Below, in pieces: positions 1 to 45,909 of a stretch of 64,000 bases of DNA. A program made the translations under genes and the position numbers. The stretch is from assembly GCA_951802425.1 (NCBI GenBank), contig OX637796.1, forward strand, positions 1,550,001-1,614,000, read 5' to 3'. Origin of the DNA: Clavaria fumosa (taxonomy: Eukaryota > Basidiomycota > Agaricomycetes > Agaricales > Clavariaceae). The stretch's first letter is position 1, and every line of letters begins with the position of its first letter. The notes beneath the pieces were generated by a model. That model ran no database searches, was not told where the DNA came from, and saw nothing but the letters and a program-made list of their open reading frames with translations.

Positions 1-2703
1 GTGGATCTAGTGGACTAGGTGCAGCAAGTAGGTGTAGGTCTAGTGGACTAGTTGCAGCTATTAGCTGTAGATGTAGTGAACTAGTTACAGCTAGTAGCTG
101 TGGGCCTAGTGGACTAGTTGCAGTTGCAGCTACTAGCAGTGGGCCTAGTGGACTAGTTGCAGCTAGTAGGTGTAGGTCTAGTAGACTAGTTGCAGCTATT
201 AGCTGTAGATGTAGTGAACTAGTTACAGCTAGTAGCTGTGGGCCTAGTGGACTAGTTGCAGCTACTAGCCGTGGGCCTAGTGGACTAGTTGCAGCTATTA
301 GTTGTAGATGTAGTGAACTAGTTGCAGCTAGTAGGTGTAGGTCTAGTAGACTAGTTGCTGCTATTAGCTGTAGATGTAGTGAACTAGTTACAGCTAGTAG
401 CTGTGGACCTAGTGGACTAGTTGCAGCTACTAGCTGTAGATCTAGTGAACTAGTTGCAGCTAGTAGCTGTAGATGTAGTGAACTAGTTGCAGCTAGTAGG
501 TGTAGGTCTAGTGGACTAGTTGCAGCTATTAGCTGTAGATGTAGTAAACTAGTTACAGCTAGTAGCTGTGGGCCTAGTGGACTAGTTGCAGTTGCAGCTA
601 CTAGCAGTGGGCCTAGTGGACTAGTTGCAGCTAGTAGGTGTAGGTCTAGTAGACTAGTTGCAGCTATTAGCTGTAGATGTAGTGAACTAGTTACAGCTAG
701 TAGCTGTGGGCCTAGTGGACTAGTTGCAGCTACTAGCTGTGGGCCTAGTGGACTAGTTGCAGCTAGTAGCTGTGGGCCTAGTGGACTAGTTACAGCTACT
801 AGCTGTGGGCCTAGTGGACTAGTTGCAGCTACTAGCTGTAGATCTAGTGAACTAGTTACAGCTATTAGTTGTAGATGTAGTGAACTAGTTGCAGCTGGTA
901 GGTGTAGGTCTAGTGGACTAGTTGCAGCTAGTAGCTGTGGGCCTAGTGGACTAGTTGCAGCTACTAGCTGTAGATGTAGTGAACTAGTTACAGCTATTAG
1001 CTGTAGATGTAGTGAACTAGTTGCAGCTATTAGCTGTAGATGTAGTGAACTAGTTACAGCTAGTAGCTGTGGACCTAGTGGACTAGTTGCAGCTACTAGC
1101 TGTAGATGTAGTGAACTAGTTGCAGCTATTAGCTGTAGTTGTAGTGAACTAGTTACAGCTAGTAGCTGTGGACCTAGTGGACTAGTTGCAGCTACTAGCT
1201 GTAGATCTAGTGAACTAGTTACAGCTATTAGTTGTAGATGTAGTGAACTAGTTGCAGCTAGTAGGTGTAGGGCTAGTGGACTAGTTGCAGCTATTAGCTG
1301 TAGACGTAGTGAACTAGTTGCAGCTAGTAGCTGTGGACCTAGTGGACTAGTTGCAGCTACTAGCTGTAGATCTAGTGAACTAGTTACAGCTATTAGTTGT
1401 AGATGTAGTGAACTAGTTGCAGCTAGTAGGTGTAGGGCTAGTGGACTAGTTGCAGCTACTAGCTGTAGATCTAGTGAACTAGTTACAGCTATTAGTTGTA
1501 GATGTAGTGAACTAGTTGCAGCTAGTAGGTGTAGGTCTAGTGGACTAGTTGCAGCTATTAGCTGTAGATGTAGTGAACTAGTTACAGCTAGTAGCTGTGG
1601 GCCTAGTGGACTAGTTGCAGTTGCAGCTACTAGCAGTGGGCCTAGTGGACTAGTTGCAGCTAGTAGGTGTAGGTCTAGTAGACTAGTTGCAGCTATTAGC
1701 TGTAGATGTAGTGAACTAGTTACAGCTAGTAGCTGTGGGCCTAGTGGACTAGTTACAGCTAGTAGCTGTGGGCCTAGTGGACTAGTTGCAGCTACTAGCT
1801 ATAGATGTAGTGAACTAGTTACAGCTATTAGTTGTAGATGTAGCAAACTAGTTGCAGCTAGTAGGTGTAGGTCTAGTAGACTAGTTGCAGCTAGTAGTTG
1901 TGGACCTAGTGGACTAGTGGCAGCTACCAGCTGTTGGTCTAGCAGACTAGTTACAGCCATTAGCTGTGGATCTAGTGAACTAGTTACAGCTATTAGTTGT
2001 AGATGTAGTGAACTAGTTGCAGCTAGTAGGTGTAGGTCTAGTGGACTAGTTGCAGCTATTAGCTGTAGATGTAGTGAACTAGTTACAGCTAGTAGCTGTG
2101 GGCCTAGTGGACTAGTTGCAGTTGCAGCTACTAGCAGTGGGCCTAGTGGACTAGTTGCAGCTAGTAGGTGTAGGTCTAGTAGACTAGTTGCAGCTATTAG
2201 CTGTAGATGTAGTGAACTAGTTACAGCTAGTAGCTGTGGGCCTAGTGGACTAGTTACAGCTAGTAGCTGTGGGCCTAGTGGACTAGTTGCAGCTACTAGC
2301 TATAGATGTAGTGAACTAGTTACAGCTATTAGTTGTAGATGTAGCAAACTAGTTGCAGCTAGTAGGTGTAGGTCTAGTAGACTAGTTGCAGCTAGTAGTT
2401 GTGGACCTAGTGGACTAGTGGCAGCTACCAGCTGTTGGTCTAGCAGACTAGTTACAGCCATTAGCTGTGGATCTAGTGAACTAGTTACAGCTATTAGTTG
2501 TAGATGTAGTGAACTAGTTGCAGCTAGTAGCTGTGGACCTAGTGGACTAGTTGCACCTACTAGCTGTGGGTCTAGTCAGTTACTAGCTGTAGATCTGGTG
2601 AATTAGTTACAGCTACTAGCTGTGGATCTAGTGGACTAGTTGCAGCTAGTTGCTGTGGGTTGGTAGACTGGTTACAGCTATTAGCTGTGGATCTAGTCAG
2701 TCA
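1..2703 (+). repeat. 33-bp minisatellite array, left arm of P1
   Basis: Tandem units of 33 bp, with occasional 39-bp units carrying a 6-bp GTTGCA insertion. Each unit carries a short dyad CAGCT-NNN-AGCTG and usually an ACTAGT palindrome. Several unit variants alternate (GGGCCTAGTGGA, GATGTAGTGAA, GGTCTAGTAGA). A block around 1560-1911 recurs 501 bp later, which equals 14 units of 33 bp plus one of 39 bp, so there is higher-order repetition. Because unit lengths are multiples of three, one frame stays open from base 3 to 2606 (11-residue repeat rich in Ser, Cys, Ala and Leu). It has no ATG, so I treat it as structural rather than coding. Confidence 0.95.
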
Positions 2704-4339
2704 ATGATGTAGATTCCTTGCAATAAACTATTGTAATTACAATAGGTGGCCATTGTGAGAATGACTGAACAAACAATGGCAAACAAAATATGCCAAAAAT
2801 AAACACAAAACTCGAAATTGAGCAGCCCTGTGCCTGGTCCCTCAGGTACAGGTTACCAATCAAGCATAGCTGCTTTTGGTAAGCTGCTATGACTGTGGAA
2901 AAAATTTTGCATGGCTTGCAAAATATGACTTTTTATACACCAAAAAATCGGCAAAAATCAGGAGATTCCAGATCCGGACACCCCACATTTGTATCTGCCT
3001 TGGCTCAGTGTCAATTTGCAAAATACACAGAAAATATTCATTTTTCTACAGTTCTGCAGTACTCTGGCTTAAAAATGGATAGGAGAGGATACACACACCT
3101 ACACACACTACCTGTGGACATATGGGGAGGGTGTGGATTAGTTTAACAACTCACCCACCATCTCTGTCACCTCCCTGGAATCCATTACTAGGAATTAGGG
3201 TGTTATTGGCCTGGGAGCATGGCTATTTGTTATATTGCAAATTCCAGCCATCAGACTACACCTTATGACATCTAATACAATCACACAAAAGCCCATAATA
3301 TTTGGTGCAGAATTACAGATTCCCCATGTCTATTTTCTCAAAATTCTCAAAATCTCTCCCCAGACAGTCCCCTTTGTCAAATCACATATTCCTGTGGTCT
3401 GATAGCTGACAAGGTATGTGTGAATACATGTTCAAAGTTTGGTGAAGTTAGGCCAAGTTCTCAGGAAGATAGCCCAGAATGTGTCTTTTAGAGGACAGTC
3501 TAAAGTGAGAGCAAAGATGAAGGCAAGGATAAGGAAGACCTTGACTGTCCTCCAAAAGACTCAATCTGAGCTATCTTCTTGAGAACTTGGCCTAACTTCA
3601 CCAAACTTTGAACATGTATTCACACATACCTTGTCAGCTATCAGACCACAGGAATATGTGATTTGACAAAGGGGACTGTCTGGGGAGAGATTTTGAGAAT
3701 TTTGAGAAAATAGACATGGGGAATCTGTAATTCTGCACCAAATATTATGGGCTTTTGTGTGATTGTATTAGATGTCATAAGGTGTAGTCTGATGGCTGGA
3801 ATTTGCAATATAACAAATAGCCATGCTCCCAGGCCAATAACACCCTAATTCCTAGTAATGGATTCCAGGGAGGTGACAGAGATGGTGGGTGAGTTGTTAA
3901 ACTAATCCACACCCTCCCCATATGTCCACAGGTAGTGTGTGTAGGTGTGTGTATCCTCTCCTATCCATTTTTAAGCCAGAGTACTGCAGAACTGTAGAAA
4001 AATGAATATTTTCTGTGTATTTTGCAAATTGACACTGAGCCAAGGCAGATACAAATGTGGGGTGTCCGGATCTGGAATCTCCTGATTTTTGCCGATTTTT
4101 TGGTGTATAAAAAGTCATATTTTGCAAGCCATGCAAAATTTTTTCCACAGTCATAGCAGCTTATCAAAAGCAGCTATGCTTGATTGGTAACCTGTACCTG
4201 AGGGACCAGGCACAGGGCTGCTCAATTTCGAGTTTTGTGTTTATTTTTGGCATATTTTGTTTGCCATTGTTTGTTCAGTCATTCTCACAATGGCCACCTA
4301 TTGTAATTACAATAGTTTATTGCAAGGAATCTACATCAT
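2704..4339. repeat. Central single-copy inverted repeat of P1
   Basis: The segment from 2704 to about 3500 is repeated in reverse complement from about 3543 to 4339 (positions sum to 7043). The arms are almost identical. One clear difference is G versus A in the sequence next to GCTGCTTTTG (left) and its mirror (right). Mismatches increase over the last 40 bp towards a loop of about 42 nt (3501-3542). The arms hold only short, probably meaningless frames of 68 and 85 codons, present on both strands because of the symmetry. The same segment occurs in P2 at 19377-21012. Confidence 0.9.
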
Positions 4340-6033
4340 TGACTGACTAGATCCACAGCTAATAGCTGTAACCAGTCTACCAACCCACGGCAACTAGCTG
4401 CAACTAGTCCACTAGATCCACAGCTAGTAGCTGCAACTAGTCCACTAGGCCCACAGCTACTAGCTGTAACTAGTTCACTACATCTACAGCTAATAGCTGC
4501 AACTAGTCCACTAGGCCCACAGCTAGTAGCTGCAACTAGTCCACTAGGCCCACAGCTACTAGCTGCAACTAGTTCACTACATCTACAACTAATAGCTGTA
4601 ACTAGTTCACTAGATCTACAGCTAGTAGCTGCAACTAGTCCACTAGGCCCACAGCTACTAGCTGCAACTAGTTCACTACATCTACAACTAATAGCTGTAA
4701 CTAGTTCACTACATCTACAGCTAGTAGCTGCAACTAGTCCACTAGGCCCACAGCTAGTAGCTGTATCTAGTCCACTCGGCCCACAGCTACTAGCTGCAAC
4801 TAGTCCACTAGGCCCACAGCTAGTAGCTGCAACTAGTCCACTAGGCCCACAGCTACTAGCTGTAACTAGTTCACTACATCTACAGCTAATAGCTGCAACT
4901 AGTCCACTAGGCCCACAGCTAGTAGCTGCAACTAGTCCACTAGGCCCACAGCTAATAGCTGCAACTAGTCTACTAGACCTACACCTACTAGCTGCAACTA
5001 GTCCACTAGGCCCACAGCTAGTAGCTGCAACTAATCCACTAGGCCCACAGCTACTAGCTGTAACTAGTTCACTAGATCTACAGCTAATAGCTGCAACTAG
5101 TCCACTAGACCTATACCTACCAGCTGCAACTAGTTCACTACATCTACAACTAATAGCTGCAACTAGTCCACTAGACCTACACCTACTAGCTGCAACTAGT
5201 TCACTACATCTACAACTAATAGCTGTAACTAGCTCACTAGATCTACAGCTAGTAGCTGCAACTAGTCCACTAGGCCCACAGCTACTAGCTGTAACTAGTT
5301 CACTACATCTACAGCTAATAGCTGCAACTAGTCCACTAGGCCCACAGCTACTAGCTGTAACTAGTTCACTACATCTACAGCTAATAGCTGCAACTAGTCC
5401 ACTAGACCTACACCTACCAGCTGCAACTAGTTCACTACATCTACAACTAATAGCTGCAACTAGTCCACTAGACCTACACCTACTAGCTGCAACTAGTTCA
5501 CTACATCTACAACTAATAGCTGTAACTAGTTCACTAGATCTACAGCTAGTAGCTGCAACTAGTCCACTAGGTCCACAGCTACTAGCCGCAACTAGTCTAC
5601 TAGACCTACACCTACTAGCTGCAACTAGTTCACTACATCTACAACTAATAGCTGCAACTAGTCCACTAGGCCCACAGCTAGTAGCTGCAACTAGTCCACT
5701 AGGCCCACAGCTACTAGCTGTAACTAGTTCACTAGATCTACAGCTAATAGCTGCAACTAGTCCACTAGACCTACACCTACCAGCTGCAACTAGTTCACTA
5801 CATCTACAACTAATAGCTGTAACTAGTTCACTAGATCTACAGCTAGTAGCTGCAACTAGTCCACTAGGTCCACAGCTACTAGCTGTAACTAGTCCACTGG
5901 ACCCACAGCTAGCAGCTGTAACTAGTTCACTAGACCCATAGCTAGCACCTGCAACTAGTCCACCAGGTCCACACCTAGTAGCTGTAACTAGTCCACTAGA
6001 TCCACAGCTGTCAGCTGTATCTAGTCTACTAGT
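4340..6033 (-). repeat. 33-bp minisatellite array, right arm of P1
   Basis: Reverse-complement version of the 33-bp array. It is shorter (about 1.7 kb) than the left array of P1 and has its own order of unit variants, so it is not the mirror of that left array. Its last 150 bases before the terminal domain are identical to the right end of P2. The difference suggests deletion or unequal exchange within this arm. Confidence 0.9.
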
Positions 6034-6174
6034 CCCCCATGTACTACCTTTGACAAGTTAACTTGACAAGTTGACTGACCATAAGGATTCCTTGTCCAGC
6101 TGTAGCTGCAAAGAGTACACTATGAATTATACCTAACTGCTGTGTCTAGTTAATTATTTCATTCAGTACTACTG
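6034..6174. repeat. Terminal domain and right terminus of P1
   Basis: A non-repetitive 141-bp end common to all three visible P termini. It contains an internal dyad TTGACAAGTTAACTTGTCAA-like block and ends TTCATTCAGTACTACTG. Reversed, the terminus begins CAGTAGTACTGAATG. The CAG start recalls hAT or Zisupton-like ends, but no 8-bp target duplication can be tested here because the left flank is missing. Confidence 0.8.
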
Positions 6175-12871: not shown

Positions 12872-12914
12872 CCCCCTCGCCCCACCACTCAACACCCGGA
12901 TAACACAAACTATT

Positions 12915-13724
12915 ATGTCTTCTAGTCACACTCCTCCCCAACCAACCACTCATCACTTCCAGACATGCACAGGTAGCCGCATGATCACTCCAATGATCTT
13001 GGAGACTACTCGCGAGCCGCCTACCACCGTACAAGAACGACCCACGTCCGTCGTTCAATCGCAGCCCGAAGAACCTGCCCAAATTGTACCTAGCCACACC
13101 TCGTCACCGCGAGAAGAGGCCGAATCGCTCGTGGAGCAGTTCGGCTACCCGCGCTTCGATTGCCCTCGCCACCGCACCTACCAAATCCTTAACAATACTC
13201 ACTGCCAATACGAGGCCGGAACTCTCGATGAAGAATTAGCGTATCTCATTGAGATGACGAATCTCTACGAGGCATTGGTACAATTAACGGATGGATTTCG
13301 AGCTAACCCGCAGAACCGACTCTACGAGAGTCAACGCCAATATCCAGGCACTACCGACCGAGGAGCCCTGTCTCCCCCCGACCTGGATACCCCCTCGCGA
13401 CCTCCGAGAGTCGCCCAGCCTACAAGAGGACCCCGAGACATGGCCCCACTTTTCCAAGTCACGGCACAATCCCTGCAGAACTTTGCCAACCCTGCCGCGC
13501 TCGACGAGCGACCCGCCATTGTCTCTAGGATCCCTAGGTACACCGCCCCTCGCAGCAGCTGGCCTACGTGGACGCAGCCAACCACTACTCCGAGTAGGGC
13601 GCTCCCTCGCGACCCTATAGGGACTGAAGCAACGCTTCAACCTGCCCCTCACCTCGAGATTCCAGTCGAGCCCTTCCGTATTCCACAACCGGAAGTGCGA
13701 CCAGTACCCCAGATGGAGACGTGA
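12915..13724 (+). CDS. Pre-gag ORF of element A, unknown function
   Basis: 269 residues from an ATG 56 nt after the LTR. The protein is Pro/Thr/Ser-rich at both ends with a central block (about residues 75-135) of predicted helical character. No recognisable domain. It ends at TGA (13722-13724), and the same frame continues into gag. A' has TGA at the identical place (26037-26035), so either the stop is an original boundary or readthrough signal of the family, or the same CGA decayed twice. It is probably the N-terminal part of Gag or a separate Gag-associated product. Confidence 0.6.
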   Translation: MSSSHTPPQPTTHHFQTCTGSRMITPMILETTREPPTTVQERPTSVVQSQPEEPAQIVPSHTSSPREEAESLVEQFGYPRFDCPRHRTYQILNNTHCQYEAGTLDEELAYLIEMTNLYEALVQLTDGFRANPQNRLYESQRQYPGTTDRGALSPPDLDTPSRPPRVAQPTRGPRDMAPLFQVTAQSLQNFANPAALDERPAIVSRIPRYTAPRSSWPTWTQPTTTPSRALPRDPIGTEATLQPAPHLEIPVEPFRIPQPEVRPVPQMET

Positions 13725-14888
13725 CCAGCATCTCACCCTCCGTCACAGGCTGAAGCCCCGCAGGTCCCTCCGGTCCCCCCTATGCCTCCACACCCCGCTG
13801 CCATGCTTTGAGATGAGGCCCCTGGTACCCACCACCACCATTACTATTACCAGGCCCCTCCCTCCGAAGGACCATCGGCCTGAGACGCCTTCACTCGAGA
13901 ATCCAAGCTCGACACCAGACGTCCCGAACCGTTCAATGGTCATGACCGACGCAAGTGGAAACCTTTCGTCATGGAATGCCTAATGACTTTCTTCGCCAAG
14001 CCCGTAACCTTCCAAGGAGATCACGAGAGGGTTACATTTGCCGCCTCTTACCTCACAGACACCGCGCAGAGCCACTACACCTCCCTCCTTCAATTCAATG
14101 CTGAACACCCGGCTCTACATTCCTGGGAAGGATTCATCCGCGAGTTTGGAGGGATGTTTGGAGTGGTCAACACGCAGATTGAAGCTGACCAGAACCTTCG
14201 CTTGTTGCAGATGGGCGAAAACGAACGGTTTTCGAACCACATCATCCGTTTCGAGTCCTTCGCTTTCGAATCCAACTGGAACTCAGCCGCCCTACAATCC
14301 AAACTCTATTGCTCGATGTCCACACGCATCAAAGAGGCCATGAAAGTCATTCCGCGATCTACGACATATCAGGAACTTCGCGATTTAGCCATGCAGATTG
14401 ACCAGAGACACTGGGAATATGAGAGTGAGACTCACCGAACTCAATTCCACGCTAACCCTCCTGCTCCCTGTCCCCCTGTTCAACAAGGTGGAAATCGCCC
14501 CTTGGCTCAACAAGGTGGAAATCGCAACTACCAGACGACGTCGCGACCTTATCCAGCCGCTGGCAATAATCCTACGATGCCCCGACCAGCCGCAGGGAAT
14601 CCTGCAACTTCACCGCGACCCGCTAATCCGCCCTACGTCCCCCTCAGCGATGAGGAACGAGAACGTCGTCGTCAGGGAAATCTTTGTTTGAGATGTGGAA
14701 AACCGGGACATTACAGCATTGCATGCCCCGATCGACGATTAGCCAGACGAGCTGTCTTCACGCTAGAGGAAGGAGAGGAAGAGATCCAGGAAGAGTACGA
14801 AGTTGAGGAAGAGGTAGAAGAGGATGTGGATGACCCGCACGAAGAGTTAAACGAGGAAGCGACTCAGGAGCTTCTGGGGGAACTCTGA
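13725..14888 (+). pseudogene. gag: Gag of Ty3 element A
   Basis: Capsid/nucleocapsid polyprotein in the same frame as the pre-gag ORF. Two in-frame TGA codons (13809-13811 and 13881-13883) interrupt the first 55 codons. At both places A' has CGA (Arg). From 13971 the frame is open for 305 codons: a retrotransposon-gag capsid region starting ECLMTFFAKPVTF, a Pro-rich linker, a zinc knuckle CLRCGKPGHYSIAC (C-X2-C-X4-H-X4-C) near residue 240, and a very acidic tail. The gag stop is at 14886-14888, preceded by a run of five G (14876-14880) at which the ribosome could slip into the -1 pol frame. Confidence 0.85.
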
Positions 14889-16345
14889 GTCGCGACGATC
14901 CAACCCCCATACTCGCGCGGGCCGCGACTAGTTCCTCTTCCCCTCAATTTCCTCGCGACCTTTCTAATACTCCCATTGCTTCCCAGTCTTCCCAATCCTT
15001 CCTCATAAAGACACAAATACCAGATTTCAGCTCGATTCCCTTAAATACTCTTGTTGATTGCGGCACATCAATGAATTTCATCAATTTCACCCTTGCGAAC
15101 TCCCATCCAAACCTCCTAATGCCACTTCCGCAACCTCTACCGCTTCAATACTTCGACGGAAGTTCCTCCAGCTCCAATATAACCCACTTCCTCCACGCTA
15201 ATACAAAATTCCCCGATGATACTATCCAATCCATTAAGTTCCTCGTCACTAAAACTCATCCTCTCACTCCTGTGGTTCTAGCGCTCGATTGGTTGCGAAC
15301 CTGGAACCCTAGGATCGATTGGACCAACCTCACTTTTAGTTTCGGACAGACAGCCCACTCCACGACTATCCCTCTCACTCTTCTGGACGCGAAACCCCCG
15401 AGTAAACCTTCCCCTGACCTCACGAACTCGACACCGAAACCCTCTAAACCCCCGCGAGTTCAATTGGTCAAGGCCACCACGCTTCGTCGATTGGAACAAC
15501 AAGGAGAATTTATAGGTCTCCTATACTTCCAACCCGCGAGCAACCCCTACGATGACGAATCCATACTCGCGAGTTCCGCGACCACTCAACCCCCTCCGAA
15601 ACCCGAAGGAACAGTCCCGCACGAGTATCACGACTTCCTGGACGTCTTTTCTGAAGATCTAGCCCAGGAATTACCTCCGCACCGCGACTACGACCACCGA
15701 ATTGAACTTGAGGAAGGCGAAACACCTCCTCACGGGAAGCTGTACAACATGTCAGAAGTGGAGTTAAAAACGTTGAAAGATTATTTGGACGACATGTTGG
15801 ACAAAGGCTTCATTCGGCTGTCGAAATCCCCCGCAGGTGCACCAGTACTCTTTGCGAAGAAGAAAGATGGAAGCCTTCGCCTCTGCGTCGACTATCGAGG
15901 TCTCAACAAAATCACCTGCAAAAATCGCTACCCCATTCCTCGAATTGAGACCCTCGTCGACCAATTACGCTCGGCCAAAATCTACTCGAAGATCGACCTC
16001 CGTGTTGGGTATAACAACGTGAGGATAGCTGAAGGAGACGAGTGGAAAACTGCGTTCCGCACTCGCTACGGCACGTTCAAATATCTTGTCATGCCGTTTG
16101 GACTCACGAACGCACCCGCGACCTTTCAGCACCTTATGAATGATATCTTTCACGATCTGGTCGATGTCAACATAGTAGTCTACCTCGACGACATCTTAAT
16201 CTATTTGGACAACCTCGAACAGCATCGCGACCATGTCCAAGAGGTCCTACGACGTCTACGCAAGGCAGACTTACATGCGCGACCCGAGAAGTGTGATTTC
16301 CACACCACGACGGTTGAATACCTTGGAGTTATAGTGTCCCCTGAC
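14882..16345 (+). pseudogene. pol: Pol of Ty3 element A, truncated in reverse transcriptase
   Basis: In the -1 frame relative to gag and open from the end of gag. The aspartic protease site reads LVDCGTS around 15050-15070, with Cys where Ser is usual after the catalytic Asp. Reverse transcriptase follows: the LRLCVDYRGLN region, YSKIDLRVGYNNVRI with a catalytic Asp, [14 protein letters not shown], and YLDDILIY with the Asp pair. It ends at VEYLGVIVSPD, where P2 joins. RNase H, integrase and the 3' LTR are missing. Apart from truncation this part shows no stop. A' carries TGA where A has CGA (RRLEQQ). Confidence 0.9.
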
Positions 16346-16486
16346 CAGTAGTACTGAATGAAATAATTAACTAGACACAGCAGTTAGGTATAATTCATAG
16401 TGTACTCTTTGCAGCTACAGCTGGACAAGGAATCCTTATGGTCAGTCAACTTGTCAAGTTAACTTGTCAAAGGTAGTACATGGGGG

Positions 16487-19376
16487 ACTAGTAGACTAGA
16501 TACAGCTGACAGCTGTGGATCTAGTGGACTAGTTACAGCTACTAGGTGTGGACCTGGTGGACTAGTTGCAGGTGCTAGCTATGGGTCTAGTGAACTAGTT
16601 ACAGCTGCTAGCTGTGGGTCCAGTGGACTAGTTACAGCTACCAGTTGTGGATCTAGTGGACTAGGTGCAGCAAGTAGGTGTAGGTCTAGTGGACTAGTTG
16701 CAGCTATTAGCTGTAGATGTAGTGAACTAGTTACAGCTAGTAGCTGTGGACCTAGTGGACTAGTTGCAGCTACTAGCTGTAGATCTAGTGAACTAGTTAC
16801 AGCTATTAGTTGTAGATGTAGTGAACTAGTTGCAGCTAGTAGGTGTAGGTCTAGTGGACTAGTTGCAGCTATTAGCTGTAGATGTAGTGAACTAGTTACA
16901 GCTAGTAGCTGTGGGCCTAGTGGACTAGTTGCAGCTACTAGCCGTGGGCCTAGTGGACTAGTTGCAGCTATTAGTTGTAGATGTAGTGAACTAGTTGCAG
17001 CTAGTAGGTGTAGGTCTAGTAGACTAGTTGCTGCTATTAGCTGTAGATGTAGTGAACTAGTTACAGCTAGTAGCTGTGGACCTAGTGGACTAGTTGCAGC
17101 TACTAGCTGTAGATCTAGTGAACTAGTTGCAGCTAGTAGCTGTAGATGTAGTGAACTAGTTGCAGCTAGTAGGTGTAGGTCTAGTGGACTAGTTGCAGCT
17201 ATTAGCTGTAGATGTAGTAAACTAGTTACAGCTAGTAGCTGTGGGCCTAGTGGACTAGTTGCAGTTGCAGCTACTAGCAGTGGGCCTAGTGGACTAGTTG
17301 CAGCTAGTAGGTGTAGGTCTAGTAGACTAGTTGCAGCTATTAGCTGTAGATGTAGTGAACTAGTTACAGCTAGTAGCTGTGGGCCTAGTGGACTAGTTGC
17401 AGCTACTAGCTGTGGGCCTAGTGGACTAGTTGCAGCTAGTAGCTGTGGGCCTAGTGGACTAGTTACAGCTACTAGCTGTGGGCCTAGTGGACTAGTTGCA
17501 GCTACTAGCTGTAGATCTAGTGAACTAGTTACAGCTATTAGTTGTAGATGTAGTGAACTAGTTGCAGCTGGTAGGTGTAGGTCTAGTGGACTAGTTGCAG
17601 CTAGTAGCTGTGGGCCTAGTGGACTAGTTGCAGCTACTAGCTGTAGATGTAGTGAACTAGTTACAGCTATTAGCTGTAGATGTAGTGAACTAGTTGCAGC
17701 TATTAGCTGTAGATGTAGTGAACTAGTTACAGCTAGTAGCTGTGGACCTAGTGGACTAGTTGCAGCTACTAGCTGTAGATGTAGTGAACTAGTTGCAGCT
17801 ATTAGCTGTAGTTGTAGTGAACTAGTTACAGCTAGTAGCTGTGGACCTAGTGGACTAGTTGCAGCTACTAGCTGTAGATCTAGTGAACTAGTTACAGCTA
17901 TTAGTTGTAGATGTAGTGAACTAGTTGCAGCTAGTAGGTGTAGGGCTAGTGGACTAGTTGCAGCTATTAGCTGTAGACGTAGTGAACTAGTTGCAGCTAG
18001 TAGCTGTGGACCTAGTGGACTAGTTGCAGCTACTAGCTGTAGATCTAGTGAACTAGTTACAGCTATTAGTTGTAGATGTAGTGAACTAGTTGCAGCTAGT
18101 AGGTGTAGGGCTAGTGGACTAGTTGCAGCTACTAGCTGTAGATCTAGTGAACTAGTTACAGCTATTAGTTGTAGATGTAGTGAACTAGTTGCAGCTAGTA
18201 GGTGTAGGTCTAGTGGACTAGTTGCAGCTATTAGCTGTAGATGTAGTGAACTAGTTACAGCTAGTAGCTGTGGGCCTAGTGGACTAGTTGCAGTTGCAGC
18301 TACTAGCAGTGGGCCTAGTGGACTAGTTGCAGCTAGTAGGTGTAGGTCTAGTAGACTAGTTGCAGCTATTAGCTGTAGATGTAGTGAACTAGTTACAGCT
18401 AGTAGCTGTGGGCCTAGTGGACTAGTTACAGCTAGTAGCTGTGGGCCTAGTGGACTAGTTGCAGCTACTAGCTATAGATGTAGTGAACTAGTTACAGCTA
18501 TTAGTTGTAGATGTAGCAAACTAGTTGCAGCTAGTAGGTGTAGGTCTAGTAGACTAGTTGCAGCTAGTAGTTGTGGACCTAGTGGACTAGTGGCAGCTAC
18601 CAGCTGTTGGTCTAGCAGACTAGTTACAGCCATTAGCTGTGGATCTAGTGAACTAGTTACAGCTATTAGTTGTAGATGTAGTGAACTAGTTGCAGCTAGT
18701 AGGTGTAGGTCTAGTGGACTAGTTGCAGCTATTAGCTGTAGATGTAGTGAACTAGTTACAGCTAGTAGCTGTGGGCCTAGTGGACTAGTTGCAGTTGCAG
18801 CTACTAGCAGTGGGCCTAGTGGACTAGTTGCAGCTAGTAGGTGTAGGTCTAGTAGACTAGTTGCAGCTATTAGCTGTAGATGTAGTGAACTAGTTACAGC
18901 TAGTAGCTGTGGGCCTAGTGGACTAGTTACAGCTAGTAGCTGTGGGCCTAGTGGACTAGTTGCAGCTACTAGCTATAGATGTAGTGAACTAGTTACAGCT
19001 ATTAGTTGTAGATGTAGCAAACTAGTTGCAGCTAGTAGGTGTAGGTCTAGTAGACTAGTTGCAGCTAGTAGTTGTGGACCTAGTGGACTAGTGGCAGCTA
19101 CCAGCTGTTGGTCTAGCAGACTAGTTACAGCCATTAGCTGTGGATCTAGTGAACTAGTTACAGCTATTAGTTGTAGATGTAGTGAACTAGTTGCAGCTAG
19201 TAGCTGTGGACCTAGTGGACTAGTTGCACCTACTAGCTGTGGGTCTAGTCAGTTACTAGCTGTAGATCTGGTGAATTAGTTACAGCTACTAGCTGTGGAT
19301 CTAGTGGACTAGTTGCAGCTAGTTGCTGTGGGTTGGTAGACTGGTTACAGCTATTAGCTGTGGATCTAGTCAGTCA
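16487..19376 (+). repeat. 33-bp minisatellite array, left arm of P2
   Basis: About 2.9 kb of 33-bp units with the same variants and the same 501-bp higher-order block as P1. Apart from its first few hundred bases it matches the left array of P1 in order and sequence as far as I compared. Such identity in a fast-changing array implies very recent copying or an assembly duplication. Confidence 0.93.
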
Positions 19377-21012
19377 ATGATGTAGATTCCTTGCAATAAA
19401 CTATTGTAATTACAATAGGTGGCCATTGTGAGAATGACTGAACAAACAATGGCAAACAAAATATGCCAAAAATAAACACAAAACTCGAAATTGAGCAGCC
19501 CTGTGCCTGGTCCCTCAGGTACAGGTTACCAATCAAGCATAGCTGCTTTTGGTAAGCTGCTATGACTGTGGAAAAAATTTTGCATGGCTTGCAAAATATG
19601 ACTTTTTATACACCAAAAAATCGGCAAAAATCAGGAGATTCCAGATCCGGACACCCCACATTTGTATCTGCCTTGGCTCAGTGTCAATTTGCAAAATACA
19701 CAGAAAATATTCATTTTTCTACAGTTCTGCAGTACTCTGGCTTAAAAATGGATAGGAGAGGATACACACACCTACACACACTACCTGTGGACATATGGGG
19801 AGGGTGTGGATTAGTTTAACAACTCACCCACCATCTCTGTCACCTCCCTGGAATCCATTACTAGGAATTAGGGTGTTATTGGCCTGGGAGCATGGCTATT
19901 TGTTATATTGCAAATTCCAGCCATCAGACTACACCTTATGACATCTAATACAATCACACAAAAGCCCATAATATTTGGTGCAGAATTACAGATTCCCCAT
20001 GTCTATTTTCTCAAAATTCTCAAAATCTCTCCCCAGACAGTCCCCTTTGTCAAATCACATATTCCTGTGGTCTGATAGCTGACAAGGTATGTGTGAATAC
20101 ATGTTCAAAGTTTGGTGAAGTTAGGCCAAGTTCTCAGGAAGATAGCCCAGAATGTGTCTTTTAGAGGACAGTCTAAAGTGAGAGCAAAGATGAAGGCAAG
20201 GATAAGGAAGACCTTGACTGTCCTCCAAAAGACTCAATCTGAGCTATCTTCTTGAGAACTTGGCCTAACTTCACCAAACTTTGAACATGTATTCACACAT
20301 ACCTTGTCAGCTATCAGACCACAGGAATATGTGATTTGACAAAGGGGACTGTCTGGGGAGAGATTTTGAGAATTTTGAGAAAATAGACATGGGGAATCTG
20401 TAATTCTGCACCAAATATTATGGGCTTTTGTGTGATTGTATTAGATGTCATAAGGTGTAGTCTGATGGCTGGAATTTGCAATATAACAAATAGCCATGCT
20501 CCCAGGCCAATAACACCCTAATTCCTAGTAATGGATTCCAGGGAGGTGACAGAGATGGTGGGTGAGTTGTTAAACTAATCCACACCCTCCCCATATGTCC
20601 ACAGGTAGTGTGTGTAGGTGTGTGTATCCTCTCCTATCCATTTTTAAGCCAGAGTACTGCAGAACTGTAGAAAAATGAATATTTTCTGTGTATTTTGCAA
20701 ATTGACACTGAGCCAAGGCAGATACAAATGTGGGGTGTCCGGATCTGGAATCTCCTGATTTTTGCCGATTTTTTGGTGTATAAAAAGTCATATTTTGCAA
20801 GCCATGCAAAATTTTTTCCACAGTCATAGCAGCTTATCAAAAGCAGCTATGCTTGATTGGTAACCTGTACCTGAGGGACCAGGCACAGGGCTGCTCAATT
20901 TCGAGTTTTGTGTTTATTTTTGGCATATTTTGTTTGCCATTGTTTGTTCAGTCATTCTCACAATGGCCACCTATTGTAATTACAATAGTTTATTGCAAGG
21001 AATCTACATCAT
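19377..21012. repeat. Central inverted single-copy arms of P2
   Basis: Same sequence as 2704-4339. The arms run 19377-20173 and 20216-21012, with an unpaired loop of about 42 nt at 20174-20215 (purine-rich on the plus strand). Within about 40 bp of the loop the arms carry several mismatches, while further out they are nearly identical. The pattern is expected if arm-to-arm correction fails close to a hairpin loop. Confidence 0.9.
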
Positions 21013-23902
21013 TGACTGACTAGATCCACAGCTAATAGCTGTAACCAGTCTACCAACCCACGGCAACTAGCTGCAACTAGTCCACTAGATCCACAGCTAG
21101 TAGCTGTAACTAATTCACCAGATCTACAGCTAGTAACTGACTAGACCCACAGCTAGTAGGTGCAACTAGTCCACTAGGTCCACAGCTACTAGCTGCAACT
21201 AGTTCACTACATCTACAACTAATAGCTGTAACTAGTTCACTAGATCCACAGCTAATGGCTGTAACTAGTCTGCTAGACCAACAGCTGGTAGCTGCCACTA
21301 GTCCACTAGGTCCACAACTACTAGCTGCAACTAGTCTACTAGACCTACACCTACTAGCTGCAACTAGTTTGCTACATCTACAACTAATAGCTGTAACTAG
21401 TTCACTACATCTATAGCTAGTAGCTGCAACTAGTCCACTAGGCCCACAGCTACTAGCTGTAACTAGTCCACTAGGCCCACAGCTACTAGCTGTAACTAGT
21501 TCACTACATCTACAGCTAATAGCTGCAACTAGTCTACTAGACCTACACCTACTAGCTGCAACTAGTCCACTAGGCCCACTGCTAGTAGCTGCAACTGCAA
21601 CTAGTCCACTAGGCCCACAGCTACTAGCTGTAACTAGTTCACTACATCTACAGCTAATAGCTGCAACTAGTCCACTAGACCTACACCTACTAGCTGCAAC
21701 TAGTTCACTACATCTACAACTAATAGCTGTAACTAGTTCACTAGATCCACAGCTAATGGCTGTAACTAGTCTGCTAGACCAACAGCTGGTAGCTGCCACT
21801 AGTCCACTAGGTCCACAACTACTAGCTGCAACTAGTCTACTAGACCTACACCTACTAGCTGCAACTAGTTTGCTACATCTACAACTAATAGCTGTAACTA
21901 GTTCACTACATCTATAGCTAGTAGCTGCAACTAGTCCACTAGGCCCACAGCTACTAGCTGTAACTAGTCCACTAGGCCCACAGCTACTAGCTGTAACTAG
22001 TTCACTACATCTACAGCTAATAGCTGCAACTAGTCTACTAGACCTACACCTACTAGCTGCAACTAGTCCACTAGGCCCACTGCTAGTAGCTGCAACTGCA
22101 ACTAGTCCACTAGGCCCACAGCTACTAGCTGTAACTAGTTCACTACATCTACAGCTAATAGCTGCAACTAGTCCACTAGACCTACACCTACTAGCTGCAA
22201 CTAGTTCACTACATCTACAACTAATAGCTGTAACTAGTTCACTAGATCTACAGCTAGTAGCTGCAACTAGTCCACTAGCCCTACACCTACTAGCTGCAAC
22301 TAGTTCACTACATCTACAACTAATAGCTGTAACTAGTTCACTAGATCTACAGCTAGTAGCTGCAACTAGTCCACTAGGTCCACAGCTACTAGCTGCAACT
22401 AGTTCACTACGTCTACAGCTAATAGCTGCAACTAGTCCACTAGCCCTACACCTACTAGCTGCAACTAGTTCACTACATCTACAACTAATAGCTGTAACTA
22501 GTTCACTAGATCTACAGCTAGTAGCTGCAACTAGTCCACTAGGTCCACAGCTACTAGCTGTAACTAGTTCACTACAACTACAGCTAATAGCTGCAACTAG
22601 TTCACTACATCTACAGCTAGTAGCTGCAACTAGTCCACTAGGTCCACAGCTACTAGCTGTAACTAGTTCACTACATCTACAGCTAATAGCTGCAACTAGT
22701 TCACTACATCTACAGCTAATAGCTGTAACTAGTTCACTACATCTACAGCTAGTAGCTGCAACTAGTCCACTAGGCCCACAGCTACTAGCTGCAACTAGTC
22801 CACTAGACCTACACCTACCAGCTGCAACTAGTTCACTACATCTACAACTAATAGCTGTAACTAGTTCACTAGATCTACAGCTAGTAGCTGCAACTAGTCC
22901 ACTAGGCCCACAGCTAGTAGCTGTAACTAGTCCACTAGGCCCACAGCTACTAGCTGCAACTAGTCCACTAGGCCCACAGCTAGTAGCTGCAACTAGTCCA
23001 CTAGGCCCACAGCTACTAGCTGTAACTAGTTCACTACATCTACAGCTAATAGCTGCAACTAGTCTACTAGACCTACACCTACTAGCTGCAACTAGTCCAC
23101 TAGGCCCACTGCTAGTAGCTGCAACTGCAACTAGTCCACTAGGCCCACAGCTACTAGCTGTAACTAGTTTACTACATCTACAGCTAATAGCTGCAACTAG
23201 TCCACTAGACCTACACCTACTAGCTGCAACTAGTTCACTACATCTACAGCTACTAGCTGCAACTAGTTCACTAGATCTACAGCTAGTAGCTGCAACTAGT
23301 CCACTAGGTCCACAGCTACTAGCTGTAACTAGTTCACTACATCTACAGCTAATAGCAGCAACTAGTCTACTAGACCTACACCTACTAGCTGCAACTAGTT
23401 CACTACATCTACAACTAATAGCTGCAACTAGTCCACTAGGCCCACGGCTAGTAGCTGCAACTAGTCCACTAGGCCCACAGCTACTAGCTGTAACTAGTTC
23501 ACTACATCTACAGCTAATAGCTGCAACTAGTCCACTAGACCTACACCTACTAGCTGCAACTAGTTCACTACATCTACAACTAATAGCTGTAACTAGTTCA
23601 CTAGATCTACAGCTAGTAGCTGCAACTAGTCCACTAGGTCCACAGCTACTAGCTGTAACTAGTTCACTACATCTACAGCTAATAGCTGCAACTAGTCCAC
23701 TAGACCTACACCTACTTGCTGCACCTAGTCCACTAGATCCACAACTGGTAGCTGTAACTAGTCCACTGGACCCACAGCTAGCAGCTGTAACTAGTTCACT
23801 AGACCCATAGCTAGCACCTGCAACTAGTCCACCAGGTCCACACCTAGTAGCTGTAACTAGTCCACTAGATCCACAGCTGTCAGCTGTATCTAGTCTACTA
23901 GT
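21013..23902 (-). repeat. 33-bp minisatellite array, right arm of P2
   Basis: Mirror image of the left array, including the variant order and the rare 39-bp units (for example the block at 21110-21799 mirrors 18590-19279). This strict symmetry differs from P1, whose right array is independent of its left one. Confidence 0.92.
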
Positions 23903-24043
23903 CCCCCATGTACTACCTTTGACAAGTTAACTTGACAAGTTGACTGACCATAAGGATTCCTTGTCCAGCTGTAGCTGCAAAGAGTACACTATGAATTATA
24001 CCTAACTGCTGTGTCTAGTTAATTATTTCATTCAGTACTACTG

Positions 24044-24843
24044 GCAGTGCGGAGGTAGTTCCTGGGCTAGATCTTCGGAAAAGACGTCCAGGAAGTCGTG
24101 GTACTCGTGCGGGACTGTTTCTTCGGGTTTCGGAGGGGGTTGAGTGGTTGCAGAACTCGCGAGTATGGATTCATCATCGTAGGGGTTGTTCGCAGGTTGG
24201 AAGTATAGGAGACCTATAAATTCTCCTTGTTGTTCCAATCAACAAAGCGTGGTGGCCTTGATCAATTGAACTCGCGGAGGTTTAGAAGGTTTCAGTGCCA
24301 AGTTCGCGAGGTCAGAAGGAGGTTTACTCAGGGGTTTCGCGTCCAGGAGGGTGAGAGGGATAGTTGCAGAGCGGGCTGTCTGTCCGAAACTAAAGGTGAG
24401 GTTAGTCCAGTCGATCCTAGGGTTCCAGGTTCGCAACCTGTCGAGTCCTAGAACGACGGGAGTGAGTGGATGGGTCTTGGTGACGAGGAACTTAATGGAT
24501 TGGATAGTATCGTTGGGAAACTTCGTGTTAGCGAGGATGTAATGGGTTATGTTGGAGCTGGAGGAACTTCCGTCGAAGTATTGGAGAGGTAGGGGTTGCG
24601 GGAGTGGTATTAGGAGGTTCGGACGGGTGTTCGCAAGTACAGAGTCGATAAAATTCATGGATGCGCCGCAGTCAACAAGAGTATTTACGGGAGTCGAACC
24701 GAAATCTGGGATTTGTGTCTTTATGAGGAAGGATTGGGAGGACTGGGAAGGAATAGGAGTATTAGAAAAGTCGAGAAGAAACTGAGGAGAGGAGGAACTA
24801 GTCGTGGCCCACGTGAGTATGAGGGTTGGTTCATCACAACTCA
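24044..24843 (-). pseudogene. pol: Pol fragment of A' (protease region)
   Basis: Starts in the -1 frame after gag. The protease site and following region match A residue for residue with scattered changes (MNFIDSVLANTRPN versus MNFINFTLANSHPN). A TGA at 24241-24239 lies where A has CGA, and the neighbouring codon is TGT where A has CGT. It ends at the P2 junction before any reverse transcriptase motif. Confidence 0.85.
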
Positions 24844-26034
24844 GAGTTCCCCCGGAAGTTCCTGAGTCACTTCCTCGTTTAACTCTTCGCGTGGATCATC
24901 GACATCCTCTTCCACTTCTTCTTCAACTTCATATGCTTCCTGGAAGTCTTCCTCTCCTTCCTCGAGCGTAAACACAGCTCGTCCTGCTACTCATCGGTCA
25001 GGACAAGCAGCGCTGTAGTGTCCGGGCTTCCCACATCTCATGCAGAGGTTTCCCTGACGACGATGTTCTCATTCCTCATCGCTAAGGGGGACGTAGGGCG
25101 GATTCGAATTCGGATTCGGCTGTCGAGGCGGATTGGTGGGTCGCGGTGAAGTCGCAGGGTTTCCTGCGGCTGGTCGGGGCGTTGTAGGATTATTGCCAGT
25201 GGCGGGATAAGGTTACGACGTCGTTTGGTAGGTGCGATTTCCGCCTTGTTGAGCCAAGGGGCGATTTCCGCCTTGTTGAGCAGGGGGACGAGGAGCAGGA
25301 GGGTTAGCGCGGAATTGGGTTTGGCAGGTCTCACTCTCATATTCCCAATGCCTCTGATCAATCTGCATGGCCAAATCTCGAAGTTCTTGGTACGTCGTAG
25401 GTTGCAGAATGACTTTCATGGCCTCTTTAATGCGTGTGGACAACGAACGGTAGAGTTCTGATTGAAGGGCAGCCGAGTTCCAGTTGGATTTGAAGGCGAA
25501 AGACTCGAAGCGGATAATGTGGTTTGAAAAGCGTTCGTTTTCGCCCATCTGCAACATACGGAGGTTCTGGTCGGCTTCAATCTGCATGTTGACCACTCCA
25601 AACATCCCTCCAAACTTGCGGATGAATCCTTCCCAGGAATGTAGAGCTGGGTGTTCGGCATTGAATTGGAGGAGGGAGGTGTAGTGGCTCTGCGCGGTGT
25701 CCGTGAGGTAAGAGGCTGCGAAAGTAACCCTCTCGTGATCTCCTTGGAAGGTTACGGGCTTGGCGAAGAAAGTCATTAGGCATTCCGTGATGAAAGGTTT
25801 CCACTTGCGTCGGTCATGACCATTGAACGGTTCGGGACACCTGGTGTTGAGCTTGGATTCTCGAGCGAAGGCGTCTCGGGCCGATGGTCCTTCGGAGGGA
25901 GGGGCCTGGTAATAGTAGTGGTGATGGTGGGTTCCAGGCGCCTCATCTCGAAGCGCGGCAACGAGGTGTGGATGCATAGGGGGGACCGGAGGGACCTGCG
26001 GAGCTTGAGCCTGAGACGGAGGACGAGATGCTGG
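24841..26034 (-). pseudogene. gag: Gag of A'
   Basis: Open from MHPHLVAALRDE (25977) through the capsid region to about 25213 and then broken. It retains CGA codons where A has TGA. The zinc knuckle (C-X2-C-X4-H-X4-C, around 25000-25040) is present but followed by a TGA. The gag end is conserved with A, including the G run before the terminal TGA at 24843-24841. Confidence 0.85.
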
Positions 26035-26844
26035 TCACGTCTCCATTGGGGGTACTGGTCGTGCTTCTGGTCGTGGAATATGGAAGGGTTCGACCGGAAT
26101 CTCGAGGCGGGGGGTGGGTTGAAGGGTTGCTTCAGTCCCTATAGGGTTGCGAGGGAGCGCCCTACTCGGAGTAGTGGCTGGCTGCGTCCACGTCGGCCAG
26201 CTACTGCGAGGGGCGGTGTACCTTGGGATCCTGGAGAGAATGGCTGGTCGCTCATCGGGCGCAGCAGGATTTGCAAAATTCTGAAGAGATTGGGCCGCGA
26301 CCTGGAAAAGCGGGGCCATATCCCGGGGTCCTCTGGTGGGTTGAACCTGTCTTGGAGGTCGTGAGGGGGTATCCAGATCAGGAGGAGTCGGAACTCCACG
26401 GTCAGTAGTTCCTGGATACTGACGCTGACTCTCGTATAACAGGTTCTGTGGGTTAGCTCGGAATCCATCCATCAATCGTACCAATGCCTCGTAGAGGTTT
26501 GTTGTCTCAATGACATATGCAAGTTCTTCATCGAGAGTTCCGGCCTTGTATTGGCAGCGAGTATTGTTAAGGATTTGGTAGGTGCGGTGGCAAGGGCGAT
26601 CGAAGTGCAGGTAGCCGAACTGCTCCACGAGCGATTCGGCCTCTTCTCACGGTGACGAGGTGTGGCTAGGTACGATTTGGGCGGGTTCTTCAGGCTGCGA
26701 TTGAACGACGGACGTGGGTCATTCTTGTACGGTGGTAGGCGGCTCGCGAGTAGTCTCCAAGATCATTGGAGTGATCATGCGGCTACCTGTGCATGTCTGG
26801 AAGTGATGAGTGGTTGGTTGGGGAGGAGTATGACTAGAAGACAT
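26035..26844 (-). pseudogene. Pre-gag ORF of A'
   Basis: Same product as 12915-13724, from ATG 26844-26842. Two TGA codons (26721-26719 and 26649-26647) stand where A has CGA. The frame is open from 26628 to the shared terminal TGA at 26037-26035. Confidence 0.75.
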
Positions 26845-26885
26845 AATAGGGTGCTATCCGGGTGTTGAGTGGTGGGGCAAGGGGC

Positions 26886-36635: not shown

Positions 36636-37302
36636 GGAAATTACAAGTCATAGTAAAAGAGTTCAGAACACAGGACAGGGACAGTAAAGTTATACATCCC
36701 TGGTCTTCTCATAATAAAGACATGAGAGGGGAGCTGAGGGTGGTCATGAAAAAGATGAAAAGAAATCCTATCTGGTCTAACATGAGCCACTGGACCAAAA
36801 ATAACTAAAAGAAATCCTATCTGGTCTAACATGAGCCACTGGACCAAAAATAACTTGGACAACCTGTCCATCTAGCCACACTCCTATCATTGTCCAGGGG
36901 ACAATGGGGTTGATGGGGTGAATGGTGATTCCCCAGGAGAGAGAGGGGAGGTCCTGCCCAAGGAGGGAGGCCTGATCCATATTGACAATGGTGAAAAAGA
37001 ACATTCTGCTTGGAATAACACATTAGAGAATCTCTAATAGTGTAGAATCAAGAACATACTAGTGTTTCTGGGTGGTCTGAGTAGGGATAGAGTGTAGTGG
37101 TGGTGGTAGAAAGTAGTAGTGGTGGTGGAAAATAAATGTGTTCTGGGGGTGTGGCCTTGGTGTGGCACAGGTGTGTCCATTGCTGTCATGTGCTCATCAC
37201 ATGACACTCTGAACAATGCTGGTGCAGCTATTTGCTCTCTCATTCTTCTCTCATCTCATTTCAGCTGCTATTCTCTAACAATAACCACTATACTCTATAC
37301 TC
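36636..37302. other. Unassigned sequence with a 49-bp tandem duplication
   Basis: No gene recognised. A block starting AAAAGAAATCCTATCTGG is present twice in tandem with period 49 (about 36757-36855). The rest shows no TIR or LTR signal that I can support. Confidence 0.6.
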
Positions 37303-44473: not shown

Positions 44474-44742
44474 AAGACTTTACACTGGTCCACCCATTCC
44501 AATGGACTCCACAGGACTCCGAACCAAGTCCCACTGGACTGTGATTGGACTGGGTCAGGACTATGATTGGACTCCACTGGACTGTGTTAGGACTGTGATT
44601 GGACTCCACTGGACTGTGTCAGGACTGTGATTGGACTCACTGGACTTGATTGGAGTCCACTGGATTCCTCAGGAGTCTGCATGGAGTCCACTGGAGTCCA
44701 CTGGAGTCTGAGCATAATGGAAGAAAACAAATGTCACCAGCC

Positions 44743-44796
44743 AGAGTTGAACCCAAATCCTTGTGTCACTTGGAAATGCAGTTACCAGCTATGCCA
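44743..44796 (-). other. tRNA-like Pol III boxes, left arm of S
   Basis: On the minus strand TGGCATAGCTGG (44796-44785) is a perfect A-box match and GGTTCAACTCT (44753-44743) a weaker B box. A cloverleaf cannot be completed, so this is a tRNA-derived relic as in SINE heads, not a tRNA gene. Confidence 0.55.
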
Positions 44797-45573
44797 TGCA
44801 GCCACAGTTATCTTAGCCAATATAATCCCTATAGCCCTTGTCCTGAGCTCTGTGGAGTCCTTAGGAGTCCTGAGGAGTCCTTAGGAGTCTGGCTGGAGTC
44901 CTCAGGAGTCCTTAGGAGTCCAACTGGAGTCCTGAGGAGTCTGACTGGAGTCCTGAGGAGTCTGACTGGAGTCCTGAGGAGTCCAACTGGAGTCCTGAGG
45001 AGTCTGACTGGAGTCCTGAGGAGTCCAACTGGAGTCCTCAGGAGTCTGACTGGAGTCTTCAGGAGTCTTCGGGAGTCTGACTGGAGTCCTCAGGAGTCTG
45101 ACTGGAGTCTTCAGGAGTCTGGCTGGAGTCCTCAGGAGTCCTTAGGAGTCCAACTGGAGTCCTCAGGAGTCCAACTGGAGTCCTCAGGAGTCCAACTGGA
45201 GTCCTCAGGAGTCCAACTGGAGTCCTCAGGACTCCAGTCAGACTCCTGAAGACTCCAGTCAGACTCCCGAAGACTCCTGAAGACTCCAGTCAGACTCCTG
45301 AGGACTCCAGTTGGACTCCTCAGGACTCCAGTCAGACTCCTCAGGACTCCAGTTGGACTCCTCAGGACTCCAGTCAGACTCCTCAGGACTCCAGTCAGAC
45401 TCCTCAGGACTCCAGTTGGACTCCTAAGGACTCCTGAGGACTCCAGTTGGACTCCTAAGGACTCCTGAGGACTCCAGCCAGACTCCTAAGGACTCCTCAG
45501 GACTCCTAAGGACTCCACAGAGCTCAGGACAAGGGCTATAGGGATTATATTGGCTAAGATAACTGTGGCTGCA

Positions 45574-45627
45574 TGGCATAGCTGGTAATTGCATTTCCAA
45601 GTGACACAAAGATCTGGGTTTGACTCC
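45574..45627 (+). other. tRNA-like Pol III boxes, right arm of S
   Basis: A box TGGCATAGCTGG at 45574-45585 and B box GGTTTGACTCC at 45617-45627, one CpG transition away from consensus GGTTCGANTCC. It is the mirror copy of the left arm, so any Pol III transcription from the two arms would point outward from the array. Confidence 0.6.
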
Positions 45628-45909
45628 AGCTGGTGACATTTTATTCAGCTGTGTTAGGACTCCATTGGACTCTGTGTGGACTCCAGTGGACTCCAATGGA
45701 CTCCATGTGGACTCCAATGGGACTGCTCCAATGGACTCCAGTGGAAGAAATTCCATTGGACTCCTGGCCAAGTCTGACAAAGTCCTTGCTGGCTCCAATG
45801 GAGTCCTTGTTGGCTCTGATAGAGTCCTTGCTGGCTCCAATGGAGTCCTTGCTGGCTCCAATGGACTCCATCGGAATGGGTGGCCAAGTGTAAAGTCCTC
45901 GCCAATCTC

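Follow-up and report, generated by a model that had tools for sequence, protein, structure and literature searches.

The FB elements of Drosophila and the TU elements of sea urchin possess inverted arms made of short tandem repeats, and by this general layout, on which alone they are compared here, they resemble a palindromic element, P2, within 64,000 nucleotides of the Clavaria fumosa genome. This whole stretch of DNA, referred to as the window, corresponds to C3:1550001-1614000 in an assembly of 48.76 Mb and 17 contigs. FB is characterized by a 9-bp target-site duplication and a 31-bp repeat unit; the 9-bp duplication typical of the Mutator-related FB/NOF elements is not found in the family to which P2 belongs, which instead shows duplications of 7 bp and a 33-bp unit. 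By structural definition this family is classed with the foldback elements, and homology to any named family is not claimed. Our overall reading, to which we assign a probability of about 0.7, is that of a foldback family moved by a transposase acting in trans, with arms that recombine with each other, in which P2 originated from an exchange between two oppositely oriented insertions.

Further parallels are found in other elements with published descriptions. Galileo, a member of the P superfamily in Drosophila, similarly has 7-bp duplications and long, internally repetitive inverted ends, some of its copies consist of two inverted ends alone, and others have nonmatching 7-bp flanks from which its authors infer ectopic recombination (PMC3573991). 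It has also been associated with inversions (PMC2775673). Unlike the family described here, with arms of up to 4.7 kb and a loop of 42 nt, Galileo includes transposase-bearing copies and has inverted ends of ~0.3 to 1.2 kb (PMC3573991). Tetris of Drosophila virilis is likewise described as a nonautonomous foldback element composed of flanking, tandem-repeat, and inner domains, for which that account reports no driver, but it differs in its 8- to 10-bp duplications, its ~220-bp unit, and its three structurally complete copies (PMC4079207). The Mutator/foldback element Tm1 of root-knot nematodes shares composite inverted ends with repeated short motifs, and differs in its 9-bp duplications and in the putative transposase of some copies (PMC3169594).

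Within Agaricomycotina, the Kyakuja (KDZ) elements combine 7-bp duplications with 5'-CA..TG-3' ends, as is seen here (PMC12730594). In that source, however, they are described as being without terminal inverted repeats and as carrying TET/JBP genes, whereas P2 has inverted arms of 3.8 kb, is almost entirely inverted repeat, and contains no recognized gene. The foldback hosts listed by the authors of Tetris are Drosophila, rye, Arabidopsis, sea urchin, and Chironomus (PMC4079207). A search of open-licence papers for fungal foldback elements turned up no case, in line with the original prediction, which was made from the sequence of the window and knew of no fungal counterpart; the matches inspected for foldback passages concern, besides the Tetris and Tm1 papers cited above, RNA hairpins (PMC9757828), Drosophila (PMC6431247), Tetris (PMC9659126), and a review of Mutator (PMC6446971). 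Since this search shows no fungal foldback element, P2 and its relatives place such elements in a new kingdom, as far as the search reaches.

Structure of the P2 palindrome

P2 occupies 7,698 bp (positions 16346-24043) and is composed of two arms of 3,828 bp each, 16346-20173 and 20216-24043, on either side of a 42-nt loop (20174-20215), with one extra pairing base outside each end (C16345/G24044). From the outside inward, each arm contains a 141-bp end, then 2,880 bp of tandem 33-bp units, and lastly a core of 807 bp. The arms are identical at 3,821 of 3,828 positions and the arrays at 2,879 of 2,880, and the mirrored 3.8-kb arms with 2.9-kb minisatellite arrays that had been predicted are thereby confirmed. 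The accompanying statement that differences occur only near the loop is slightly wrong: five of the seven lie within 37 nt of it, but the other two are ~620 and ~850 nt away (positions 2981 and 3206 from the outer end). The domains of P2, its flanks, and the second copy in the window, P1, are as follows.

1-6174, forward strand: P1 (C3:1549700-1556174, beginning 300 bp before the window), arms of 3,801 and 2,632 bp, duplication GAGGTGG; from end matches, loop, and duplication
12910-16345, forward strand: left flank, Ty3/gypsy-type, with a reverse-transcriptase frame (15071-16351) interrupted by P2
16346-16486, forward strand: P2 left 141-bp terminal domain, beginning CAGTAGTACTGAATG; from genome matches to the 141-bp end
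16487-19366, forward strand: array of 33-bp units in the left arm of P2, 2,880 bp; from Tandem Repeats Finder
19367-20173, forward strand: core domain of the P2 left arm (807 bp), of type A where it adjoins the loop; from core matches and arm comparison
20174-20215, forward strand: P2 loop, 42 nt; from loop comparison among 18 looped copies
20216-21022, reverse strand: P2 right core domain, type B beside the loop; from exact agreement with P1 and L014, arm B, for 891 bp outward from the loop
21023-23902, reverse strand: P2 right array; same as the left array at 2,879 of 2,880 positions
21062-21106, no strand: switch interval of the right arm (positions 2937-2981 from the right end), type B toward the loop and A array outward
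23903-24043, reverse strand: P2 right 141-bp terminal domain; from genome matches to the 141-bp end
24044-26849, reverse strand: right flank, an inverted stretch 87-90% like 12910-15690, sharing no 7-bp duplication with the left flank

The long inverted arms with their tandem repeats are those of a foldback element, and the 42-nt loop leaves no transposase gene in the middle of P2. Reading frames of at least 60 amino acids wholly inside the left arm are limited to one of 229 amino acids in the array and two of 68 and 85 amino acids in the core (no family search was made with them), and no RNA family (Rfam, gathering score) or tRNA was called. The element end CAGTAGTACTG is self-complementary except for its middle base. 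A similar motif, CAGCTA[G/C]TAGCTG, occurs 662 times as an exact match in the arrays of 18 copies (~62 kb), and by analogy with Galileo (PMC3573991, in the part available) these repeats could be candidate transposase-binding sites, such that the 33-bp arrays may supply additional places for the enzyme to bind. Across the 18 looped copies that were compared, the loop is unchanged or varies at a few bases.

A dispersed family with base-precise insertion sites

The strength of comparing P2 with the remainder of the genome is that it places the palindrome in a family. A 22-bp end pattern, allowing up to 3 mismatches, has 86 genome matches (45 forward and 41 reverse), while the reversed control gives 0 and 1. 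Three of the 86 (L034-L036) proved unrelated on inspection, L034 and L035 being retroelement-like frames. For the 141-bp end there were 85 candidates at first look, of which 40 were scored, and all 40 are 100% identical over 141 bp. Viral contigs give 0 matches to a 35-bp pattern of the end. By our own tally the genome contains at least 39 core-bearing sites, mostly inverted pairs, and sequence was retrieved for all but 17 of the 39. The longest arms in the family reach 4.7 kb. As the ends and core of P2 recur across the genome, the palindrome is neither a chance feature nor a one-off, and it is confirmed as a real sequence feature of the assembly.

An exact 7-bp target-site duplication lies directly outside CAGTAG...CTACTG in 13 of the 19 two-ended copies examined. 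Genome-wide, among 24 two-ended copies (end pairs less than 30 kb apart, plus the right end of L027), 16 have an exact 7-bp duplication, one matches at 6 of 7 positions, and seven have none; at least three further end pairs (C7:345223, C11:2003541, and C12:1328671) are outside this count. The original prediction of a foldback layout without transposase is supported, in that P2 is one of many dispersed copies sharing identical 141-bp ends. Further evidence for mobility comes from empty sites. When the flanks of a copy are joined with one 7-mer removed, the join crosses an uninterrupted paralogous site, under a 15-bp criterion past the junction and with the retrieved loci as comparison sequence, in 9 of the 13 duplication-bearing copies; joins of swapped flanks do so in 0 of 156. 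Because joins of own flanks restore empty sites, the family inserts as a discrete unit, at sites that are precise to the base. For the copies without duplication, flanks joined unaltered cross such a site in 0 of 7 cases (L011, L013, L018, L025, L027, L028, and P2); the join of L027 extends 13 bp beyond the junction at one location, which is below the criterion. Along with P2, several other insertions, as judged by eye, sit in gypsy-type sequence.

Two further observations concern distribution. A diverged subfamily with cores 91-93% alike is present at C1:896579, C2:2795334, C7:1717998, C8:2488377, C11:533092, and C13:1358733. Core-bearing sites number 0 on C4 (3.7 expected) and 7 on C13 (1.5 expected), these contigs having been picked after looking.

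Arms that resemble each other within copies

Arm statistics were obtained from 18 copies with both ends and a loop, a set that excludes L029 (no loop found), L011, L012, L019, L024, and L030 (a single end retrieved), L033 (sequence retrieved without its ends), and the diverged subfamily; L010 was compared over 601 positions. Within a copy, arm A and arm B are on average 2.0 differences apart over ~750 outer-core positions; arms of different copies differ at 19.17 positions when the same arm is compared and at 19.18 across arms. In a permutation test, 0 of 20,000 permutations reach 2.0 and the lowest value is 11.4. Consistent with this, the nearest relative of an arm, or one tied for nearest, is the other arm of its own copy for 28 of 36 arms. 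The arrays follow the same trend, with a mean 66-mer containment of 0.58 within a copy versus 0.27 between copies, and in 8 of the 18 copies the two arms have the same length or one is longer by a whole number of 33-bp units.

The region beside the loop is different. Summed over the copies, the 45 columns nearest the loop have 79 of 804 cells differing between A and B, versus 40 of 13,800 elsewhere, and the last ~37 bp have A-type and B-type states that are common to most copies. P1 and L014 have exact duplications, yet their A and B arrays stay distinct, which argues that transposition alone does not equalize arms. Equalizing seems instead to take place after insertion, through recombination, and the sequence comparison suggests that the arms are probably kept alike in concert by this process, except mostly in the ~37 bp beside the loop. 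Recombination between the arms would spread the sequence of one to the other and seldom enter this last stretch.

Origin of P2

When the arm types are placed into the context of the flanking sequence, additional insight is gained into P2 itself. Its left arm is type A over the whole length. In the right arm, type A extends inward from the outer end and gives way at position ~2937-2981 to type B, which continues up to the loop, making this arm a mosaic with one breakpoint. Over the 891 bp closest to the loop it is identical to arm B of both P1 and L014. P1 and L014 carry one A and one B array each, and P2 carries two A arrays. P2 is without a 7-bp target-site duplication, the join of its flanks corresponds to no empty site among the sequences compared, and the flanks are oppositely oriented gypsy-type stretches that are 87-90% alike with an offset of 655 bp.

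P2 likely originated when two insertions in opposite orientation exchanged sequence. Two related insertions located in inverted gypsy-type copies would have undergone a crossover, or a one-sided copying event, near the boundary of array and core, joining two type-A outer arms together with two flanks that were formerly not neighbors. A single event of this kind would thus explain the symmetry, the mosaic, and the missing duplication together. The recent arm-to-arm conversion that was originally put forward fits the concerted arms of the family, but it is not the best fit for P2, with its missing duplication, its flanks from two stretches, and its mosaic arm.

Candidate transposase

Movement of the family could be accomplished by cut and paste through a DDE transposase that is encoded elsewhere and acts in trans. 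Matches to the KDZ transposase domain are very abundant in the genome, with at least 185, and there are 79 matches to the hAT dimerization domain. Among the KDZ matches listed, and among the 79 hAT matches, no gene was seen by eye to lie between two family ends. A profile search for the P-type transposase (PF21787) gave 0 genome matches, and likewise 0 in control genomes. The 11-bp end with another following base has 21 matches, and by eye no two of them face each other across a KDZ or hAT gene.

Other candidates for an autonomous partner were rejected. The sequence between the cores of L033 (C12:1329892-1339737) is a diverged second core pair with a gypsy-type element, and the inserts in the interrupted copies L012 and L030 have gypsy-type reading frames, both as judged by eye. 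End fragments ~17 kb from a KDZ gene include a 70-bp stub beside a gag-like frame, again by eye, and the KDZ gene belongs to a separate element. A gag protein search at a limit of 1e-20 gave one relative, 48% identical. As an observation in its own right, six ends share the same outer 8-mer (C1:120298, C4:78637, C4:4475240, C5:68919, C11:2675593, and C12:77162) and each has a KDZ gene at a distance of ~17.35 kb, or 9.5 kb in the case of C4:78637; the two inspected, on C12 and C4, are 70-bp stubs of the element end. In one KDZ family, with a CxC2 cluster in its gene, a left end can be placed, as five copies outside shared blocks start at the same base; this end is its own and is unlike the start of the element described here. 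The KDZ/CxC2 genes are also in keeping with a fungal genome.

On the basis of these comparisons a Kyakuja-type KDZ transposase is mildly favored as the candidate driver, though unproven. A hAT-type enzyme generating 7-bp duplications (hAT7) is a possible, if less probable, driver in its place. The 79 dimerization domains show that hAT sequences are available, hAT7 with 7-bp duplications has been reported from rust fungi (PMC12730594), and the only KDZ family with a placeable left end begins unlike this element, which counts against KDZ. However, by eye no hAT gene is found between two family ends, KDZ matches outnumber those of hAT, and it is the Kyakuja elements of Agaricomycotina, as described in the same source, that pair 7-bp duplications with CA..TG ends.

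A likely rearrangement on contig 1

A potential link between the family and chromosome structure is found on contig 1, where two ends at C1:4866374 and C1:4907607 (L039 and L040) are 41.2 kb apart in the same orientation and are accompanied by complementary 7-mers at C1:4866367 and C1:4907600. There are 30 non-own pairs of ends no more than 50 kb apart, for which the chance expectation is 0.0018 such matches. When joined, the flanks cross ten uninterrupted paralogous places without a gap at the junction. It is likely, and the simplest reading, that the two ends are the sides of one insertion split by a 41-kb inversion that broke within the element. Less probable is that two repeat copies each received an independent insertion at the identical base, and an assembly flip may be another explanation. 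Among the 2,850 end pairs scanned for non-own 7-mer matches (75 end rows plus L027), two matches were seen, this one and one between C6 and C11, where 0.17 are expected.

Alternative explanations

The similarity of arms and the form of P2 could each have been brought about in other ways. If every jump renewed the arms, for instance through a hairpin intermediate from which one arm is copied, arms would be similar within a copy just as they are observed to be; this is nevertheless very improbable, as duplication-bearing copies, P1 and L014 included, have unequal and distinct arrays, and the sole copies of the 18 with arms of equal length (P2 and L013) are without duplications, although two copies are too few for a test. 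P2 could, alternatively, have been symmetrized in place by gene conversion, with A overwriting the outer part of B and the duplication being lost separately. Its one-breakpoint mosaic does resemble a conversion tract, and the arms of the family already evolve in concert, but a second event is required for the missing duplication and for flanks that restore no empty site, and we regard this route as unlikely. It is rather improbable that P2 reflects a mis-join, in the assembly, of two insertions inside a repeated palindrome. The absence of a duplication, the origin of the flanks from two gypsy-type stretches, and the presence of several-kilobase near-identical repeats close by are all compatible with a mis-join; the missing halves, however, would be expected elsewhere, yet no end with either of the expected 7-mers is found by exact pattern, and the type-B states that the right arm shows along its inner 891 bp, along with flanks that are 87-90% alike with a 655-bp offset and thus no fresh inverted duplicate, argue that P2 is no chimeric read folded back on itself.

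For the preferred reading, in which a transposase acts in trans, arms recombine, and P2 results from an exchange, a mis-join is one of several points that weigh on the other side. No transposase linked to the family was seen in the copies retrieved. Exact pattern search found no end carrying either 7-mer expected of the partner of P2, and a simple reciprocal crossover that left both products in the genome is therefore unsupported; the reciprocal product may have been lost or altered, or the event may have been one-sided. With respect to the arms, the loop-side center is equal or nearly so in 4 of 18 copies (no difference in L013, L021, and L022, one in L017), and L018, which has no duplication, shows 15 differences between its arms. 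Within the group of P1, L014, and P2, an arm is more similar to its counterpart in another copy than to the opposite arm of its own copy, from which it follows that equalizing is slower than the latest transposition. At the contig 1 site, the right flank supports the junction over 36-47 bp only, after which similarity stops. The C6/C11 match has no explanation, and an exchange between C2 and C12, considered on the basis of an 8-mer match, was rejected as the joined flanks cross no empty site.

Other features of the window

A second palindrome, without CAGTAG ends, is present at window positions 44729-45641, with arms at 44729-44941 and 45429-45641 that are 96% complementary. Its center consists of 21-bp GGAGTCC-rich arrays in mirror order, and its outer arm appears tRNA-like by eye (box A/B-like), with no tRNA or Rfam family called. 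Positions 36758-36855 are an exact 49-bp tandem duplication.

Implications

Elements of the foldback type are known as agents of inversion in flies. The family described here combines identical ends, palindromes of ~2 to 7 kb, precise insertion sites, one likely inversion, and measurable homogenization in a genome of 49 Mb. It is conceivable, if still tentative, that this is the first foldback family of fungi, driven by a Kyakuja-type KDZ transposase, with arms that are copied from each other faster than they mutate and a fossil of ~37 bp kept beside the loop, and that, by recombining between insertions, it may invert and join segments of chromosomes, P2 being a fresh case. The sites by which the arms differ beside the loop could serve as built-in markers of how far arm-to-arm recombination extends. 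As such, a single organism may allow three questions to be addressed: the survival time of palindromes, the means by which their arms stay alike, and the rate at which they break chromosomes.

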